Shown here piece after piece: positions 23,782 through 31,789 of a DNA stretch of 64,000 nt. Each line of letters opens with the position of its first letter. Within the stretch, counting starts at the first letter, position 1. A program made the translations under genes and the position numbers. A model generated the notes under the pieces. The model made no database searches, had not been told where the DNA came from, and saw only the letters and a list, made by a program, of their open reading frames with translations. The DNA is from Promicromonospora soli (GTDB taxonomy: Bacteria; Actinomycetota; Actinomycetes; Actinomycetales; Cellulomonadaceae), in contig NZ_BNAS01000003.1 of NCBI RefSeq assembly GCF_014653785.1, positions 386,117-450,116 of the forward strand, given 5' to 3'.

Positions 23782-24735
23782 ATGACCAAGGAGCCGCTTC
23801 GGCAGGACGAGCTGGTGCTCTTCGAGGGCCTCCGGGCCCGTCTCGAGGCGATCGCGTACCGCCTGCTGGGCTCCGCCGCGGAGGCCGAGGACGCCGTCCA
23901 GGAGACCTTCCTGCGGTGGGAGGCCGCCGACCGCGAGCAGGTCCGGGTGCCCGAGGCGTGGCTGACCCGGGTGCTGACCAACCTGTGCCTCACCCAGCTC
24001 AGGTCCGCCCGGGCCCGGCGGGAGGTCTACGTGGGCCAGTGGCTGCCGGAGCCCGTGCTGGGCGGCGACCCGATGCTCGGCCCGGCGGAGACGGCAGAGC
24101 AGCGCGACACGGTCTCGACCGCGGTGCTCGTGCTGATGGAGCGCCTCACCCCGAACGAGCGGGCGGTCTACGTGCTGCGGGAGGCGTTCGCCTTCTCGCA
24201 CGCGGAGATCGCCGAGATGCTCGGGATCACCGAGGTGGGCAGCCAGCAGACGTTCCACCGTGCCAAGCAGCATGTGGCCGCGGAGCGGACCCGCGCCGAT
24301 GTCGACCTGGCCGCCGCCCGGCAGGTCGTGGAGGAGTTCCTCACGGCCGCCGCGAGCGGGCGGACCGAGCCGCTCGTGCGGCTGCTGACCGACGACGCGA
24401 TGGGCGTGGGCGACGGCGGCGGCAAGATCCCGGCGCGGGCGAAGCCGTTCTTCGGCGCCCCGGCCGTCGCCAAGTTCCTGCGCGGCCTGTTCCGGCCTGC
24501 CGCCGCCAAGCGGGCGCTCCTCGGCGGGAGCCCCGACATCTACGCCTGGACCGCCAACGGCAGCCCGGCGCTGGTCGCCGTGGTCGACGGCCGGCTGGTC
24601 GGCGTGATGACCCTCGAGGTGACCCCCGACGGCATCGCCGCAGTCCTCAGCCAGGTCAACCCGGACAAGCTCGGCCGCGCCGGCCGGCAGTGGGCGGCGG
24701 CGGACCACGGCGAGCCGGTGCTCAGCGGCTGGTGA
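23782..24735 (+). CDS. sigJ: ECF41-type RNA polymerase sigma factor (SigJ family)
   Basis: 317 residues. Sigma region 2 (AIAYRLLGSAAEAEDAVQETFLRW) and region 4 (RAVYVLREAFAFSHAEIAEMLG) are followed by a SnoaL-like C-terminal domain of about 130 residues. ECF41 hallmarks are present: WLPEP in the linker (87-91), DGGGK (211-215) and NPDKL near the end (293-297). In this group the fused domain regulates sigma activity in place of a separate anti-sigma factor. The next gene, an NADH-dehydrogenase-like flavoprotein, is the usual ECF41 target. Confidence 0.93.
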   Translation: MTKEPLRQDELVLFEGLRARLEAIAYRLLGSAAEAEDAVQETFLRWEAADREQVRVPEAWLTRVLTNLCLTQLRSARARREVYVGQWLPEPVLGGDPMLGPAETAEQRDTVSTAVLVLMERLTPNERAVYVLREAFAFSHAEIAEMLGITEVGSQQTFHRAKQHVAAERTRADVDLAAARQVVEEFLTAAASGRTEPLVRLLTDDAMGVGDGGGKIPARAKPFFGAPAVAKFLRGLFRPAAAKRALLGGSPDIYAWTANGSPALVAVVDGRLVGVMTLEVTPDGIAAVLSQVNPDKLGRAGRQWAAADHGEPVLSGW

Positions 24736-24823
24736 CCGGCGTCACACCGTGCAGGTGTCAGGGATCGGGCCGCCGCCCAGTTCAGGGGGCATGACCCACC
24801 CCACGACAGGGAGCTGAGATCCC

Positions 24824-26005
24824 ATGAAGCACCGCATAGTCATCCTCGGAGCCGGGTACGCCGGGGCCTCCGCCGCGGGACGCCTGGCCCGCCGCCTGCA
24901 CGCCGACGACGTGGACGTCACCCTCGTCAACGCAGAGCCGGACTTCGTCGAACGGGTTCGGATGCACCAGGTAGCGACCGGACAGGATCTGCGCCACCGG
25001 CCGCTGCGCGATCTGCTCGCCGGCACGGGCGCCACTCTCCGCGTCGCGCGCGTCACGGCCGTCGACGTCGACCGCCGGACCGTCGCCCTCACCGGCGCCG
25101 ACGGCGCGGACGAGCTGGGCTACGACACCCTCGTCTACGCGCTGGGCAGCTCGCTCGACGACTGCGGCGTGCCAGGCGTCGCCGAGCACGCCTACGACGT
25201 CGCGAGCCGGCCGGGTGCGCTCCGGCTCCGCGAGCGGCTGGGGGATCTCGCCCCCGGACGGCGCGTGGTGGTGGTAGGGGGCGGCCTGACCGGCATCGAG
25301 ACGGCAAGCGAGATCGCGGAGGCGCGCGGCGACCTGGACGTCGCGCTGGCAGTCCGGGGCGGCCTCGGCGACTGGCTCTCGCCCGCGGGGCGTCGGCACC
25401 TGCGCGCGGCCTTCGGTCGCCTCGGCGTCACGGTCCACGAGCACGCCGACGTCGAGCGGGTCGGCGCAGGCGAGGTGGTGACCGACACCGGCACCAGGAT
25501 CCCGTCGGACGTCACCGTGTGGACCGCCGGCTTCACCGTGCACCCGACCGCCGCCGCCACGGCCCTGCAGGTCTCGGAGCGCGGTCGGATAGTCGTCGAC
25601 GGAAGCATGCGGTCCGTCTCCCACCCGGACGTCTACGCCGTGGGCGACGCCGCCCTCGCCCACGGGCCGCTGAGCACCCCGCTGCGGATGTCGTGCGCGT
25701 CGGGCATCCCGATGGCGTGGCAGGCCGCCGACTCCATCGTCGCGCGCCTGACCGGCGGCAAGCTCCCGAACATGCCGCTGGGCTACGTGCACCAGTGCAT
25801 CAGCCTGGGCCGGAACGACGCCCTCATCCAGCTGGTCACCGCAGACGACCGTGCCAAGCCCGCCGCGCCCGGCGGGCGCCTCGCCGCCCGGTACAAGGAG
25901 CTGGTCTGCGCGGGCGCCGCGTTCGTGGTCGCCCACCCGCTGACCTACCCGGCACGACGGCGTCGCGTGGTGAGGCAGGGCGCGCCGCTCATCCCGGCCG
26001 GCTGA
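24824..26005 (+). CDS. NDH-2-like FAD/NAD(P) oxidoreductase, likely ECF41 target
   Basis: 393 residues with two dinucleotide folds: VILGAGYAGASAAGRLARRL at the start for FAD and VVVVGGGLTGIETASEI near 150 for NAD(P)H. The ATG-like FAD motif VYAVGDAA lies near 270, and no C-terminal membrane anchor is obvious. It resembles type II NADH dehydrogenases (COG1252). Just upstream, CGTCACA at 24740 resembles the -35 element TGTCACA recalled for ECF41 promoters, but the matching -10 is poor. The 3' end overlaps the convergent hydrolase by 17 bases. Confidence 0.85.
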   Translation: MKHRIVILGAGYAGASAAGRLARRLHADDVDVTLVNAEPDFVERVRMHQVATGQDLRHRPLRDLLAGTGATLRVARVTAVDVDRRTVALTGADGADELGYDTLVYALGSSLDDCGVPGVAEHAYDVASRPGALRLRERLGDLAPGRRVVVVGGGLTGIETASEIAEARGDLDVALAVRGGLGDWLSPAGRRHLRAAFGRLGVTVHEHADVERVGAGEVVTDTGTRIPSDVTVWTAGFTVHPTAAATALQVSERGRIVVDGSMRSVSHPDVYAVGDAALAHGPLSTPLRMSCASGIPMAWQAADSIVARLTGGKLPNMPLGYVHQCISLGRNDALIQLVTADDRAKPAAPGGRLAARYKELVCAGAAFVVAHPLTYPARRRRVVRQGAPLIPAG

Positions 26006-27686: not shown

Positions 27687-29375
27687 ATGGACGACAGGCC
27701 AGTCATCCTCCTGGTCGTCGGCGAGCACGCCGACGTCGTCGAGCAGGAGTTCCGCGCCCGGTACGACCGCGACTACCGCATCGAGACGGCCGTGGGCTTC
27801 GACGCGGGGCTGGACCGTGCGCGCGAGCTCGTGGCCGACGGCGCGCAGATCGCGATGATCGCGGCCGAGCACCACCTGGACGAGGGCACGTCGATCGAGT
27901 TCCTGCACCATGTGCCGGCCATCGTCGCGACGGCGCGGCGCGTGGCTCTCGTCGGGTTCGAGGACTTCGCCGACGCCATCGGCGACCTGCGTGCGGCCGC
28001 TCTGCGGCGCGACATGGACACCTTCATCCTCATCCCGCGCGGCCCGCGGGACGAGGAGTTCCACACGGCGCTGATCGAGCTGCTGTCGGAGTGGGGATGG
28101 TCGGTGGGGCGGCCGCTGGTGACCGTGACGGACCTGGTCGCGGAGTCGGGCGACCGTGGTGCGGCGGCGATCCGGGACCTCCTGGAGCGACTTGGCATCC
28201 CGCACCGCGTGCTCGCTCCGGGCGACGACGAGGCGGAGGAGATCGTCGAGGCGGCCGGGGCCGGGGCGGAGCTGCCCCTGGTCCGGGCCTTCACCGGCAG
28301 GGTCCTGTCCGCGGCGACGCCGGCTGCGGTCGCCGAGGCGATGTACGGCGGGTTCGACACGATCCCGCAGGGTGTGATCGCGGATGTCGCTATCGTCGGC
28401 GCCGGTCCAGCGGGCCTCGCGGCGGCCGTCTACGCGGCGTCCGAGGGGCTGGCCACGGTAGTGCTCGAACGCGACGCGATCGGTGGCCAGGCCGGGTCGA
28501 GCTCCATGATCCGCAACTACCTCGGCTTCCCGCGCGGCATCTCGGGCATGCGGCTCGCGCAGCGGTCCCGCATCCAGGCCGGCCGGTTCGGCGCGCGCTT
28601 CTACACCGGGCGCCCGGCGATCAGTGTCGCGCCTGGTCCCGCCGACGAGCCCGAGCACCAGCACGTGCACGTCGCCGGTGCCCAGATGTGCGCCCGCACC
28701 GTCGTCCTCGCGACCGGGGTGACCTATCGGCGCCTGGGCGTGCCCGGCGTCGACGACCTCGTGGGCGCCGGCGTGTACTACGGGGCCGCGACGTCGATGG
28801 CGCGTGAGATGCAGGACCGCGACGTCTACGTGGTCGGGGGCGGGAACTCGGCCGGCCAGGCCGCCGTCCACCTCGCCAAGTTCGCCGGCGCGGTGACGAT
28901 CCTGGTCCGACGCGCGGCCCTCGCGGAGACGATGTCGGACTACCTGGTGCGCGAGATCGCGGCGACGTCGAACATCCAGGTGCGGACCCGGACCGTGGTC
29001 GCCGACGGCGGCGGGGACGGGCGGCTGCAGTGGCTGCGCCTCGAGGACCTCGATACCGGCGAGGCCGGCAAGACGCTCGCCGACGGCCTGTTCTGCCTGC
29101 TCGGCGCCGAGCCGGACTGTTCTTGGCTGCCCGACGGCGTGGCGCTCGACGAGCGAGGCTTTGTTCTGACCGGCCGGGACGTGCCCCGCGAAGCCTGGAT
29201 CGACGGCGACCCGCCCGCGAGCCTGGAGACGACGGTGCCGGGCATCTTCGCGGTCGGCGACGTGCGCGCCGGGTCCATGAAGCGTGTCGCGTCAGCGAGC
29301 GGCGAGGGCGCGTCGGTGCTGCCGCTGATCCACGCCCACCTGGAGCGGCTGCGCGCCCGCGAGTTCGGGGCCTGA
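27687..29375 (+). CDS. Thioredoxin-reductase-like flavoprotein with N-terminal receiver-like domain, lacking CxxC
   Basis: 562 residues. Residues 1-130 resemble a response-regulator receiver, but the usual phosphoacceptor Asp position falls in AQIAMIAAEHH and carries no Asp. Residues about 140-220 look like a glutaredoxin/thioredoxin fold without cysteines (IPHRVLAPGDDEAEEI, LPLVRAFTGRVL). From 233 on is a thioredoxin reductase (GAGPAGLAAAVYA, VVGGGNSAGQAAVHLAKFA, FAVGDVRAGSMKRVASASGEG). The catalytic CxxC is replaced by GAAT (366-369), so it cannot act as a normal disulfide reductase. ATG at 27687. Function probably NAD(P)H-linked electron transfer; partner unknown. Confidence 0.85.
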   Translation: MDDRPVILLVVGEHADVVEQEFRARYDRDYRIETAVGFDAGLDRARELVADGAQIAMIAAEHHLDEGTSIEFLHHVPAIVATARRVALVGFEDFADAIGDLRAAALRRDMDTFILIPRGPRDEEFHTALIELLSEWGWSVGRPLVTVTDLVAESGDRGAAAIRDLLERLGIPHRVLAPGDDEAEEIVEAAGAGAELPLVRAFTGRVLSAATPAAVAEAMYGGFDTIPQGVIADVAIVGAGPAGLAAAVYAASEGLATVVLERDAIGGQAGSSSMIRNYLGFPRGISGMRLAQRSRIQAGRFGARFYTGRPAISVAPGPADEPEHQHVHVAGAQMCARTVVLATGVTYRRLGVPGVDDLVGAGVYYGAATSMAREMQDRDVYVVGGGNSAGQAAVHLAKFAGAVTILVRRAALAETMSDYLVREIAATSNIQVRTRTVVADGGGDGRLQWLRLEDLDTGEAGKTLADGLFCLLGAEPDCSWLPDGVALDERGFVLTGRDVPREAWIDGDPPASLETTVPGIFAVGDVRAGSMKRVASASGEGASVLPLIHAHLERLRAREFGA

Positions 29376-29385
29376 CCCGGTCGGT

Positions 29386-29856
29386 TCACTGGTTCCGGGA
29401 GTGGAGGCGTTCCAGCTCGGCGCCGACGGCGGCCATGCCCCGGGCGAGCCCTCGAAGGTCGTCGAGCGGGATGCGCATGAGGACGTCGTCGGCGAACTCG
29501 GGGCGCGCGGCGACCAGGCGACGCATGGCGGACCGGCCGTGCTCCGTCGCGTGGATCCGGCGGACGCGCGCGTCGTGGGGGTCGCTCGAGCGCTCGGCCA
29601 TGCCCTGCGCCACGAGCCGATCGAGCAGCCCGGACATCGAGGCCATGGAGACGCCGAACGCCTCCGCGAGCCCGCTCCCCGTCATGCCCTCGTCCGTGGT
29701 GACCAGCATCGTGAGGACCTTGAGCTGCTGGATCGTGAGCTCCACCGTCAGCAACGGCGTGAGGAGAGTAGGCAGCGCCCCGGTCTCGAACGCGATGCTG
29801 AGGACGCGGATCTGCTCGGCCAGCCGCATGCGCTCGTCGTCGCCGGTCTCTTTCAC
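29386..29856 (-). CDS. MarR family transcriptional regulator
   Basis: 156 residues with the MarR winged helix: LTIQQLKVLTMLVTTDEGMT, GSGLAEAFGVSMASMSGLLDRLVAQG, DARVRRIHATEHGRSAMRRL. It is divergent from a Baeyer-Villiger monooxygenase gene. The 124-bp region between them carries two related inverted repeats, so it probably represses that enzyme and itself, released by an aromatic or ketone ligand (inference). Confidence 0.9.
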   Translation of the reverse strand: MKETGDDERMRLAEQIRVLSIAFETGALPTLLTPLLTVELTIQQLKVLTMLVTTDEGMTGSGLAEAFGVSMASMSGLLDRLVAQGMAERSSDPHDARVRRIHATEHGRSAMRRLVAARPEFADDVLMRIPLDDLRGLARGMAAVGAELERLHSRNQ

Positions 29857-29893
29857 GTGCCCACCGTAGTTCGTGCAGGGATGTCCGGCCGTG

Positions 29894-29938
29894 TTTACTT
29901 AGGATCAGCCTAACCTATTTACTTAGGACCAGGTTAAG
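29894..29938. promoter_or_regulatory. Tandem MarR operator candidates
   Basis: TTAGGATCAGCCTAA (29899-29913) is a perfect 5-bp inverted repeat. CTTAGGACCAGGTTAAG (29922-29938) is a related imperfect one. Both start with the direct repeat TTTACTTAGGA, spaced 24 bases apart. They fill the AT-richer stretch between the MarR and monooxygenase genes. Confidence 0.6.
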
Positions 29939-29980
29939 TTTACGGTGGCCGGACCAACCGATCCCAGCGAGGGGCCACAC

Positions 29981-31789
29981 ATGACAACCTCTTCCCAGGC
30001 GACGCCGACCATCGAGGAGCTGGACGTCGACGCGCTCCGGGCGAAGTACGCCGCGGAGCGGGACCGGCGCATCCGCCCGGACGGGGCAACCCAGTACCGG
30101 CGCACGGCCGGTTCCTTCGGCTACTACGCCACTGATCCGTACACCCCTCGGGTCGAGCGCGAGCCGCTGACGGACACCGTCGAGGTGCTCGTCGTCGGCG
30201 GCGGGTTCGGCGGCCTTGTCACGGGTGCACGCCTGCGCCAGGCCGGCGTCGAGAACCTGCGCATGATGGACGAGGCCGGCGACTTCGGCGGGACCTGGTA
30301 CTGGAACCGTTACCCCGGCATCCACTGCGACATCCAGTCCTACGTCTACATGCCGCTCCTCGAGGAGGTCGGCTCCGTGCCGGAGTGGCGCTACGCGCCC
30401 GGCGAGGAGATCCGGCGGCACGCCGTCGCCATCGCGCGGAAGTACGACCTGTACCGCGACGCGGTGTTCCATACCAGGGTGACCGCGCTGGACTGGGACG
30501 AGGCGGCGGACGAGTGGGTGGTGCGGACCGATCGCGGAGACCGCATGCGCGCCCGCTACGTGATCACCTCCTCCGGCACGCTCACCGAGCCCAAGCTCCC
30601 GGGCATCCCCGGCATCGAGACCTTCCGCGGCCACACCTTCCACACGAGCCGGTGGGACTACGGCTACACCGGCGGCGACCAGTTCGGCGGCCTGACCGGG
30701 CTCGCCGACAAGAAGGTGGCAGTGGTGGGCACGGGCGCCACCGGCGTGCAGGTCATCCCGTTCGTGGCGCGCGACGCCGAGCAGCTCGTCGTCTTCCAGC
30801 GCACCCCCTCGTCGGTCGACGTCCGGGACAACCGCCCCACCGACCCGGAGTGGGCCGCATCGCTCCGCCCCGGCTGGCAGCGGGAACGCATGGACAACTT
30901 CCTCGCCGTCGTCTCCGGTGAGCCCGTCGACGGGGACCTGACGCAGGACGGCTGGACGTCGACCGCCCAGCTGCAGCGCAAGGTCGTCTCCGGCGCCGTG
31001 GACACCAGCGTGTCCGCCGAGGAGCGCGAGCGGATCGACGATCTCGTCGACCTCGCGAAGATGAATCAGATCCGCGCCCGCGTCGACGAGGTGGTCACCG
31101 ACCCCGCGACCGCCGAGCTGCTCAAGCCCTGGTACCGCTACATGTGCAAGCGACCGACCTTCAGCGACCTCTACCTGCCGACCTTCAACCGGCCCAACGT
31201 CACGCTCGTCGACACGGCGGACTTCGGCGGAATCACGCGCATGACTCAGACCGGCGTCGTCGTGGGCGACGTCGAGTACGAGGTCGACTGCGTCATCTTC
31301 GCCACGGGTTTCGAGGTCGGCGTCTCCGGCGTCCTGTCCGGGACCATGCCCGTGACCGGCCGCGGTGGCCAGACGCTCCTCGAGACCTGGGGGCGCCGCG
31401 GCCCCATGACGCTGCACGGGTTCTACAGCCACGGGTTCCCGAACCTCTTCCACCTCGGATCCCTGCAGAACGCCAACTCCGTGAACTTCGTGCACATCCT
31501 GCAGGAGCAGGCCGAGCACATCGCCGCCGTCATCGCCGAGAGCCGCGCGGCGGGCGCCCGCTACGTAGAGCCCTCGGAACAGGCGCAGGCCGGCTGGTCG
31601 CAGACCATCCGCGACTCCAGCCACGACAACAGCGCCTTCCAGGCGGAGTGCACCCCCGGCTACTACAACCGGGAGGGCGCTGGCACCCAGGGCAGCTCCG
31701 CCTACGGCCCGGGGCCGGTCGCCTTCCACCGCCTGCTGCGGGACTGGCGCGCGAGCGACCTGAGCGACGTCCTGGTGGGCGCCGAATGA
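29981..31789 (+). CDS. Baeyer-Villiger-type flavin monooxygenase
   Basis: 602 residues from ATG 29981, with GAGGGG upstream. Features in order: Rossmann motif VVGGGFGGLVTGARLRQ, GDFGGTWYWNRYPGIHCD, the Baeyer-Villiger fingerprint FRGHTFHTSRWD (F-x-G-x3-H-x3-W-D), the NADPH motif VVGTGATGVQVIPFVA and VIFATGFEVG. Type I BVMOs insert oxygen next to a ketone carbonyl. The roughly 60-residue N-terminal extension and size resemble cyclopentadecanone/phenylacetone-type enzymes, but the substrate is not predictable. Controlled by the divergent MarR gene. Confidence 0.92.
   Translation: MTTSSQATPTIEELDVDALRAKYAAERDRRIRPDGATQYRRTAGSFGYYATDPYTPRVEREPLTDTVEVLVVGGGFGGLVTGARLRQAGVENLRMMDEAGDFGGTWYWNRYPGIHCDIQSYVYMPLLEEVGSVPEWRYAPGEEIRRHAVAIARKYDLYRDAVFHTRVTALDWDEAADEWVVRTDRGDRMRARYVITSSGTLTEPKLPGIPGIETFRGHTFHTSRWDYGYTGGDQFGGLTGLADKKVAVVGTGATGVQVIPFVARDAEQLVVFQRTPSSVDVRDNRPTDPEWAASLRPGWQRERMDNFLAVVSGEPVDGDLTQDGWTSTAQLQRKVVSGAVDTSVSAEERERIDDLVDLAKMNQIRARVDEVVTDPATAELLKPWYRYMCKRPTFSDLYLPTFNRPNVTLVDTADFGGITRMTQTGVVVGDVEYEVDCVIFATGFEVGVSGVLSGTMPVTGRGGQTLLETWGRRGPMTLHGFYSHGFPNLFHLGSLQNANSVNFVHILQEQAEHIAAVIAESRAAGARYVEPSEQAQAGWSQTIRDSSHDNSAFQAECTPGYYNREGAGTQGSSAYGPGPVAFHRLLRDWRASDLSDVLVGAE

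Follow-up and report, generated by a model that had tools for sequence, protein, structure and literature searches.

Proteins in which a receiver domain is combined with a thioredoxin reductase (REC-TrxR) are already in print (PMC5847659). Pseudo-receivers (PsR), which keep the receiver fold and lack one or more of the five active-site residues, are also known, and the on/off switching of the bacterial ones is called unknown in the passages covered of a 2025 review (PMC12632262); the words oxidoreductase, thioredoxin and enzymatic are absent from the main text of this review. Thioredoxin reductase (TrxR)-like enzymes without the CxxC pair are known as FNRs, ferredoxin/flavodoxin reductases, according to the part of PMC10294844 that was covered. 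The REC-TrxR family is not treated in the passages covered of PMC8945050, and in the open-licence literature we found no description of the biochemistry of the family, of a link to a kinase, of a glutaredoxin-like (Grx-like) domain that is cysteine-free family-wide or of the joint loss of the kinase and the receiver residues. What is already known is therefore the fusion itself, the pseudo-receivers and the CxxC-free FNRs.

The gene described here lies at 27687-29375 on the + strand of the window, the 64,000-nucleotide stretch of Promicromonospora soli DNA that was analysed. It is a single unbroken open reading frame, from an ATG at 27687 to a stop at 29375, and encodes 562 residues arranged as a pseudo-receiver, a Grx-like domain and a TrxR-like flavoenzyme that has no cysteine pair. 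Its receiver upstream of a TrxR-like module and its full-length homology place it in the REC-TrxR response-regulator class; the canonical members L048-L054 have the same domain order and are 37-43% identical to it, but the window protein lacks all the usable receiver residues and a partner kinase. Probably, it represents an ancient pseudo-receiver branch of this class that has no kinase and would carry out NAD(P)H:flavin electron transfer that does not depend on phosphorylation. Two proteins named in their records as cNMP-binding-domain thioredoxin reductases (L055 and L056) have Grx-like and TrxR-like parts homologous to those of the window protein (∼42% identity from about residue 137-147), although they carry an N-terminal cyclic nucleotide-binding domain where the window protein has the receiver. 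Orthologues of the 562-residue protein were found in 11 of the 12 other Promicromonospora genomes searched, the one without being G002 (12 of 13 when its own genome is included). Ten of them aligned from residue 1, and the one of G009 matches residues 233-562 within a 585-residue frame. Orthologues with an intact frame are present across several genera. For the analysis of the family we used an alignment of 118 sequences, made of the window protein, its 11 nearest relatives, 7 sequences from named plasmid records and 99 of the 100 genome regions that had been retrieved; partial matches and L046 and L138, whose match begins beyond residue 25, were left out, and two full-length places (G425:C314 and G047:C273) stand outside it.

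A first-pass annotation of this DNA had described the receiver as lacking its phosphoacceptor Asp, and had proposed structure prediction of the N-terminal part. The model of residues 1-228 (mean pLDDT 83.1) predicts a (beta-alpha)5 receiver fold at residues 1-120 (27687-28046; pLDDT ∼90) and a Grx-like domain at residues 148-222 (28128-28352), joined by a helix and a linker (residues 121-147, 28047-28127; low confidence over 139-144). When compared with solved receiver folds in the PDB, the model gave Z scores up to 14.7 and an rmsd of 2.3 over 116 residues, in a list of matches that mostly covers residues 2-138 and is uninformative on the Grx-like part. In the model, strands b1 (6-11), b3 (55-61), b4 (84-89) and b5 (112-115) all end where the key receiver sites lie. 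According to the alignment, the phospho-Asp is not simply absent but replaced by Glu61 (27867-27869), while V89 (27951-27953) occupies the Thr/Ser position, I116 (28032-28034) the Lys position and G12/E13 (27720-27725) the position of the acidic pair. All of the 12 nearest sequences, a set to which the window protein belongs, have this Glu. An alternative CxxC or a displaced Asp would speak against the annotation; no CxxC occurs in any of the 118 rows, and neither the alignment nor the model revealed a displaced Asp. The window protein did not match PF00072, whereas its canonical homologue L050 does. It differs from canonical response regulators in the phospho-Asp, the acidic pair, the Thr/Ser, the Lys and the linked kinase of the family type, and has instead what defines a pseudo-receiver in the passages covered of PMC12632262, that is, a receiver fold with at least one of the five active-site residues missing. 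It also resembles most of the characterised PsR proteins of those passages in having no linked kinase, and differs from them in its fusion to a flavoenzyme.

The absence of cysteines from the output part has a different history. No CxxC is present anywhere in any of the 118 aligned sequences and, judging from the alignment, the lack of the cysteine pair is ancestral to the family and not a decay of the window gene. As the TrxR-like and Grx-like parts are without CxxC family-wide, including the members with complete receivers, degeneration in the window lineage concerns mainly the receiver, and to speak of three degenerate domains, as in the first-pass annotation, is misleading. Its reading of the Grx-like part as cysteine-free holds, and the whole protein has three cysteines elsewhere, C335 (28689-28691), C470 (29094-29096) and C478 (29118-29120), all outside the classical sites. 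The family profile of residues 148-222 matches the mycoredoxin Rv3198.1 (2lqo; E 2.7e-6), whose CGYC faces SxxS in most relatives and DxxA (D156-R-G-A159) in the window protein, which therefore has no active-site Cys of the glutaredoxin/mycoredoxin type. Among the 63 members with complete receivers plus L175, the first Ser is present in 59 of 64, and a Ser or Thr in the last place also in 59 of 64. In single-sequence scans, 12 of 29 members matched Pfam Glutaredoxin at E values up to 0.1 (best 0.0001), and the Grx-like domain of the window protein itself matched no Pfam family.

The FAD/NAD(P) module (residues 231-556, 28377-29354; PF07992, E 1.6e-37) is of the low-Mr thioredoxin reductase type. 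As annotated, its FAD GxGxxG motif (residues 238-243, 28398-28415) and GGGNSAGQ are intact, the FAD and NAD(P) motifs (the latter in the region of residues 384-391, 28836-28859) being near invariant in the 118 rows, and the alignment confirmed G366-A-A-T369 (28782-28793) at the position of the CxxC. A family signature, MSxYL, lies at residues 416-420 (28932-28946), with M, S, Y and L each present in at least 97% of the 118 rows. From the 2'-phosphate motif HRRxxxR, R408 alone is conserved across these rows. The low-Mr thioredoxin reductases (TIGR01292) and AhpF share this module, and AhpF also bears Trx-like N-terminal domains, but in the window protein the reductase and the Trx/Grx-like part both lack a CxxC. 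Of what identifies a thioredoxin reductase under TIGR01292, it has the FAD and NAD(P) motifs and lacks the CxxC pair, and its score of 189.8 bits is under the cut-off of 343.45. Having a TrxR fold without CxxC is also a trait of the TrxR-like FNRs, as these appear in the covered part of PMC10294844; however, the window sequence is closer to true thioredoxin reductases (best E 1.5e-39 against solved structures) than to the FNR 5ygq (E 1.2e-13). AlphaFold modelled the catalytic part of the full-length protein poorly (mean pLDDT 64.6), and a Foldseek search with this model gave AhpF as the top match with a TM score of only ∼0.2; neither the model nor the search is taken here as evidence. For this REC-TrxR family, a name like 'thioredoxin-disulfide reductase' would seem to state the wrong chemistry.

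The state of the receiver was closely associated with the presence of a partner kinase. We considered a receiver complete when it has all five key residues, as defined in the passages covered of PMC12632262, a rule that was set after inspecting the residue table. Besides the window, 117 loci could be classified in this way: 63 have a complete receiver, 21 keep the Asp but have lost another residue and 33 are without the Asp, the window protein being one further member of this last kind. In the complete-receiver relatives the next gene, which often overlaps, encodes a histidine kinase with cNMP_binding and HATPase_c domains. Using a profile made from trimmed kinase seeds, and after removing out-of-frame ORFs that overlap the target gene, we found this kinase on the same strand in 62 of the 63 complete-receiver loci, within 300 bp in 61; the exception is L135 (G406:C6:376354-377994), with the kinase on the same contig ∼22.5 kb away. 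The same search found no same-strand kinase in the 54 incomplete loci (0/21 with Asp and 0/33 without it), 44 of which are flanked by 1.5 kb or more in each direction (14/21 and 30/33, respectively); L042 has a weak match on the opposite strand (50.5 bits). There is no such kinase beside the gene in the window or in the nearest loci, and none was matched genome-wide at E<=1e-25 in the 13 Promicromonospora genomes, the one of the window included. For the genomes of the locus set, a genome-wide match was obtained in 50 of the 52 that have a complete-receiver copy vs. 2 of the 26 in which every copy of the set is incomplete. G276 and G238, which account for the missing matches in the former group, contain partial kinase sequences at contig ends (L154 and L171), and the two kinase-bearing genomes of the latter group are G099 and G362, the kinase of G362 adjoining another REC-TrxR fragment. 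The step by which the kinases of L135 and G362 were located scored four candidates per genome.

In a tree of the catalytic module, from which the receiver columns were excluded, 54 rows, all of them incomplete, formed one clade (SH-aLRT 99), and 63 of the 64 receiver-bearing rows on the other side of the split are complete. The remaining one, L175, has a lone incomplete receiver and groups with three cNMP-fused relatives on a long branch, and could be a second loss. Kinase-less and kinase-linked members are therefore separated, as far as this tree goes, by one ancient split. An independent-pairs test gave one pair on starred branches and two on all branches, too few for it to have any power, and, as there is essentially one split, the link between kinase and receiver has to be taken as a strong association and not as repeated independent proof. 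Receivers with a partial signature are scattered over the kinase-less clade, which would indicate loss and not a kinase-less ancestor. Within this clade we counted at least 12 state changes for the Asp, 7 for the Lys and 4 for the Thr. The mean column entropy of the receiver (residues 1-116) was 2.13 bits in 42 kinase-less rows (the Promicromonospora-type group being left out) vs. 1.05 in the 63 complete rows, where the five key columns are constant partly by definition but are only 5 of the 116, and that of the catalytic module was 1.35 vs. 1.25 bits. These entropies, together with the state changes, suggest that the receiver switch lost constraint and the enzyme did not. In the lineage of the window, the dN/dS values obtained in eight pairs (0.13-0.43 for the receiver, 0.10-0.32 for the Grx-like part and 0.10-0.14 for the catalytic part) and for the linker (0-0.23 in seven computable pairs) are well below 1 everywhere, so all parts of the window protein have been kept, in agreement with the retention that had been proposed at first.

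What the sequences show in the relatives is a gene for a cyclic nucleotide-binding histidine kinase adjoining one for a protein with a receiver, a cysteine-free Grx-like domain and a CxxC-free TrxR-like module. In the branch of the window the kinase is missing and the phosphorylation residues of the receiver have drifted, with the catalytic module conserved. The enzyme is predicted to bind FAD and NAD(P)H, the latter reducing the former and, because neither the reductase nor the Grx-like part has a cysteine pair, the flavin would have to hand its electrons directly, and not through a dithiol relay, to an acceptor other than a thiol (a flavodoxin, a ferredoxin, a quinone or some other small molecule). 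An electron-transfer role, one of those proposed at the outset, is plausible. Phosphorylation presumably gates electron transfer in the kinase-linked relatives, and in the window protein the docked pseudo-receiver may either fix the state of the enzyme or answer a ligand or a protein partner instead of aspartyl phosphorylation. A point against this reading is that some pseudo-receivers that retain the Asp may still be weakly phosphorylated, as stated in the passages covered of PMC12632262. We also put forward, as a tentative and rather doubtful idea, that the dead receiver and the cysteine-free Grx-like domain could form a non-phospho, non-thiol allosteric collar on the NAD(P)H oxidoreductase that would respond to a ligand, maybe a quinone or a cyclic nucleotide, in a whole actinobacterial branch that came off its kinase and whose switch was dismantled residue by residue with the enzyme under selection.

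How the dead receiver would act can be explained in more than one way. It may bind a quinone, a nucleotide or a product and so tune the flavoenzyme, a possibility of limited probability that is a sub-case of the preferred reading and overlaps with it in likelihood. Pseudo-receivers that bind quinones or c-di-GMP are on record in the passages covered of PMC12632262. Moreover, cyclic nucleotide proteins recur around the family, as the cNMP-binding kinase, the cNMP domain replacing the receiver in L055 and a cyclase gene by some kinase-less members; however, no cyclase or cNMP gene was seen beside the window copy, and receiver conservation is low on the kinase-less branch. Alternatively, Glu61 and the loss of the acidic pair could mimic phosphorylation and hold the receiver 'on', the enzyme being constitutively active. 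This is another sub-case with overlapping likelihood, and we find it unlikely: the Glu of the 12 nearest sequences and the PhoB D10A/D53E variant (2jb9), which carries the same two types of change and is constitutively active according to its PDB title, are consistent with it, but the 12 agree completely in about one third of the receiver columns in any case, the positions of the Thr and Lys that transmit the switch are hydrophobic in the window protein, and the other Asp-lost, kinase-less members have mostly Ala/Gly or Ser/Thr/Asn, so that the site does not as a rule retain a negative charge.

Two further explanations were considered. That the protein is a thiol enzyme after all, in which C470 and C478, spaced as C-x7-C, serve as a replacement redox pair either alone or together with C335, would agree with the invariance of the three cysteines in the 12 nearest sequences and their lack of conservation in the other 106 rows. 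We judge it very unlikely, as C-x7-C is not a CxxC and lies ∼100 residues past the ancestral Cys pair in the alignment to solved thioredoxin reductases; the pLDDT of the full-length model, below 50 over residues 472-478, is too low to give the geometry of these cysteines. Decay of a gene without function could account for the lost receiver motifs and for the loss of the SxxS of the Grx-like part in the window lineage, but it is hardly credible in view of the intact frame in several genera, the purifying selection in all parts and the near invariance of the FAD and NAD(P) motifs.

The REC-TrxR relatives keep the phosphorylation site only where the partner kinase has been kept, so this family offers a route to study 'dead' switches. 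Homologous receivers, live and dead, are found on the same enzyme, for the output of which NAD(P)H oxidation is expected to give a readout, and swapping them between homologues would make the pseudo-receiver question a spectrophotometric assay.

Finally, we have also compared the genes around the target in 24 neighbour loci, 12 of which have flanks of only ∼1.5 kb and about seven of which are apparently the same genome drawn twice. In the window, a CocE/NonD-type hydrolase gene (PF02129 and PF08530; 25989-27656, - strand) lies between an NDH-like gene and the REC-TrxR gene. The idea that CocE is a conserved divergent partner had to be abandoned, as it was found in none of the 24 Promicromonosporaceae-type loci. 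Ten of them have the NDH-like gene immediately upstream, which gives CocE the look of a local insertion, and five have a MarR gene downstream. Conservation of the neighbours does not extend past the genus, and none of them names a partner in the lineage of the window. At ∼23977-26005 (+ strand) the window has a gene for a sigma-70-family (ECF-like) factor and, after it, one for an FAD/NAD(P) oxidoreductase, both of which are kept together upstream in several Promicromonospora, and at 29386-31789 a MarR-type regulator (- strand) and a flavin monooxygenase-like gene (+ strand), kept downstream in some of them.

For the rest of the family, the clustering of neighbours includes out-of-frame clusters, and we used the zinc-finger and cyclase clusters alone; a simple gene caller gave no further conserved neighbour, which we do not take as evidence. 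UBP zinc-finger neighbours were found in 23 of 63 complete-receiver vs. 6 of 53 incomplete-receiver loci (L175 not counted). Such a partner was discarded for the window lineage, PF02148 having no match in its own genome. Free UBP zinc-finger genes neighbour many other REC-TrxR genes, and in L044 (3143-4981, - strand) and L177 (5150-8014, - strand) the gene adjoining a kinase-less one encodes a Na+/H+ exchanger that carries a UBP zinc finger at its C-terminus. A class III nucleotide cyclase-type gene, with an SCO4226-like domain and a cyclase domain, is also found by kinase-less copies, upstream in L098, L112, L117 and L166 and downstream in L130, and was identified by Pfam in L117 and by similarity in the other four.
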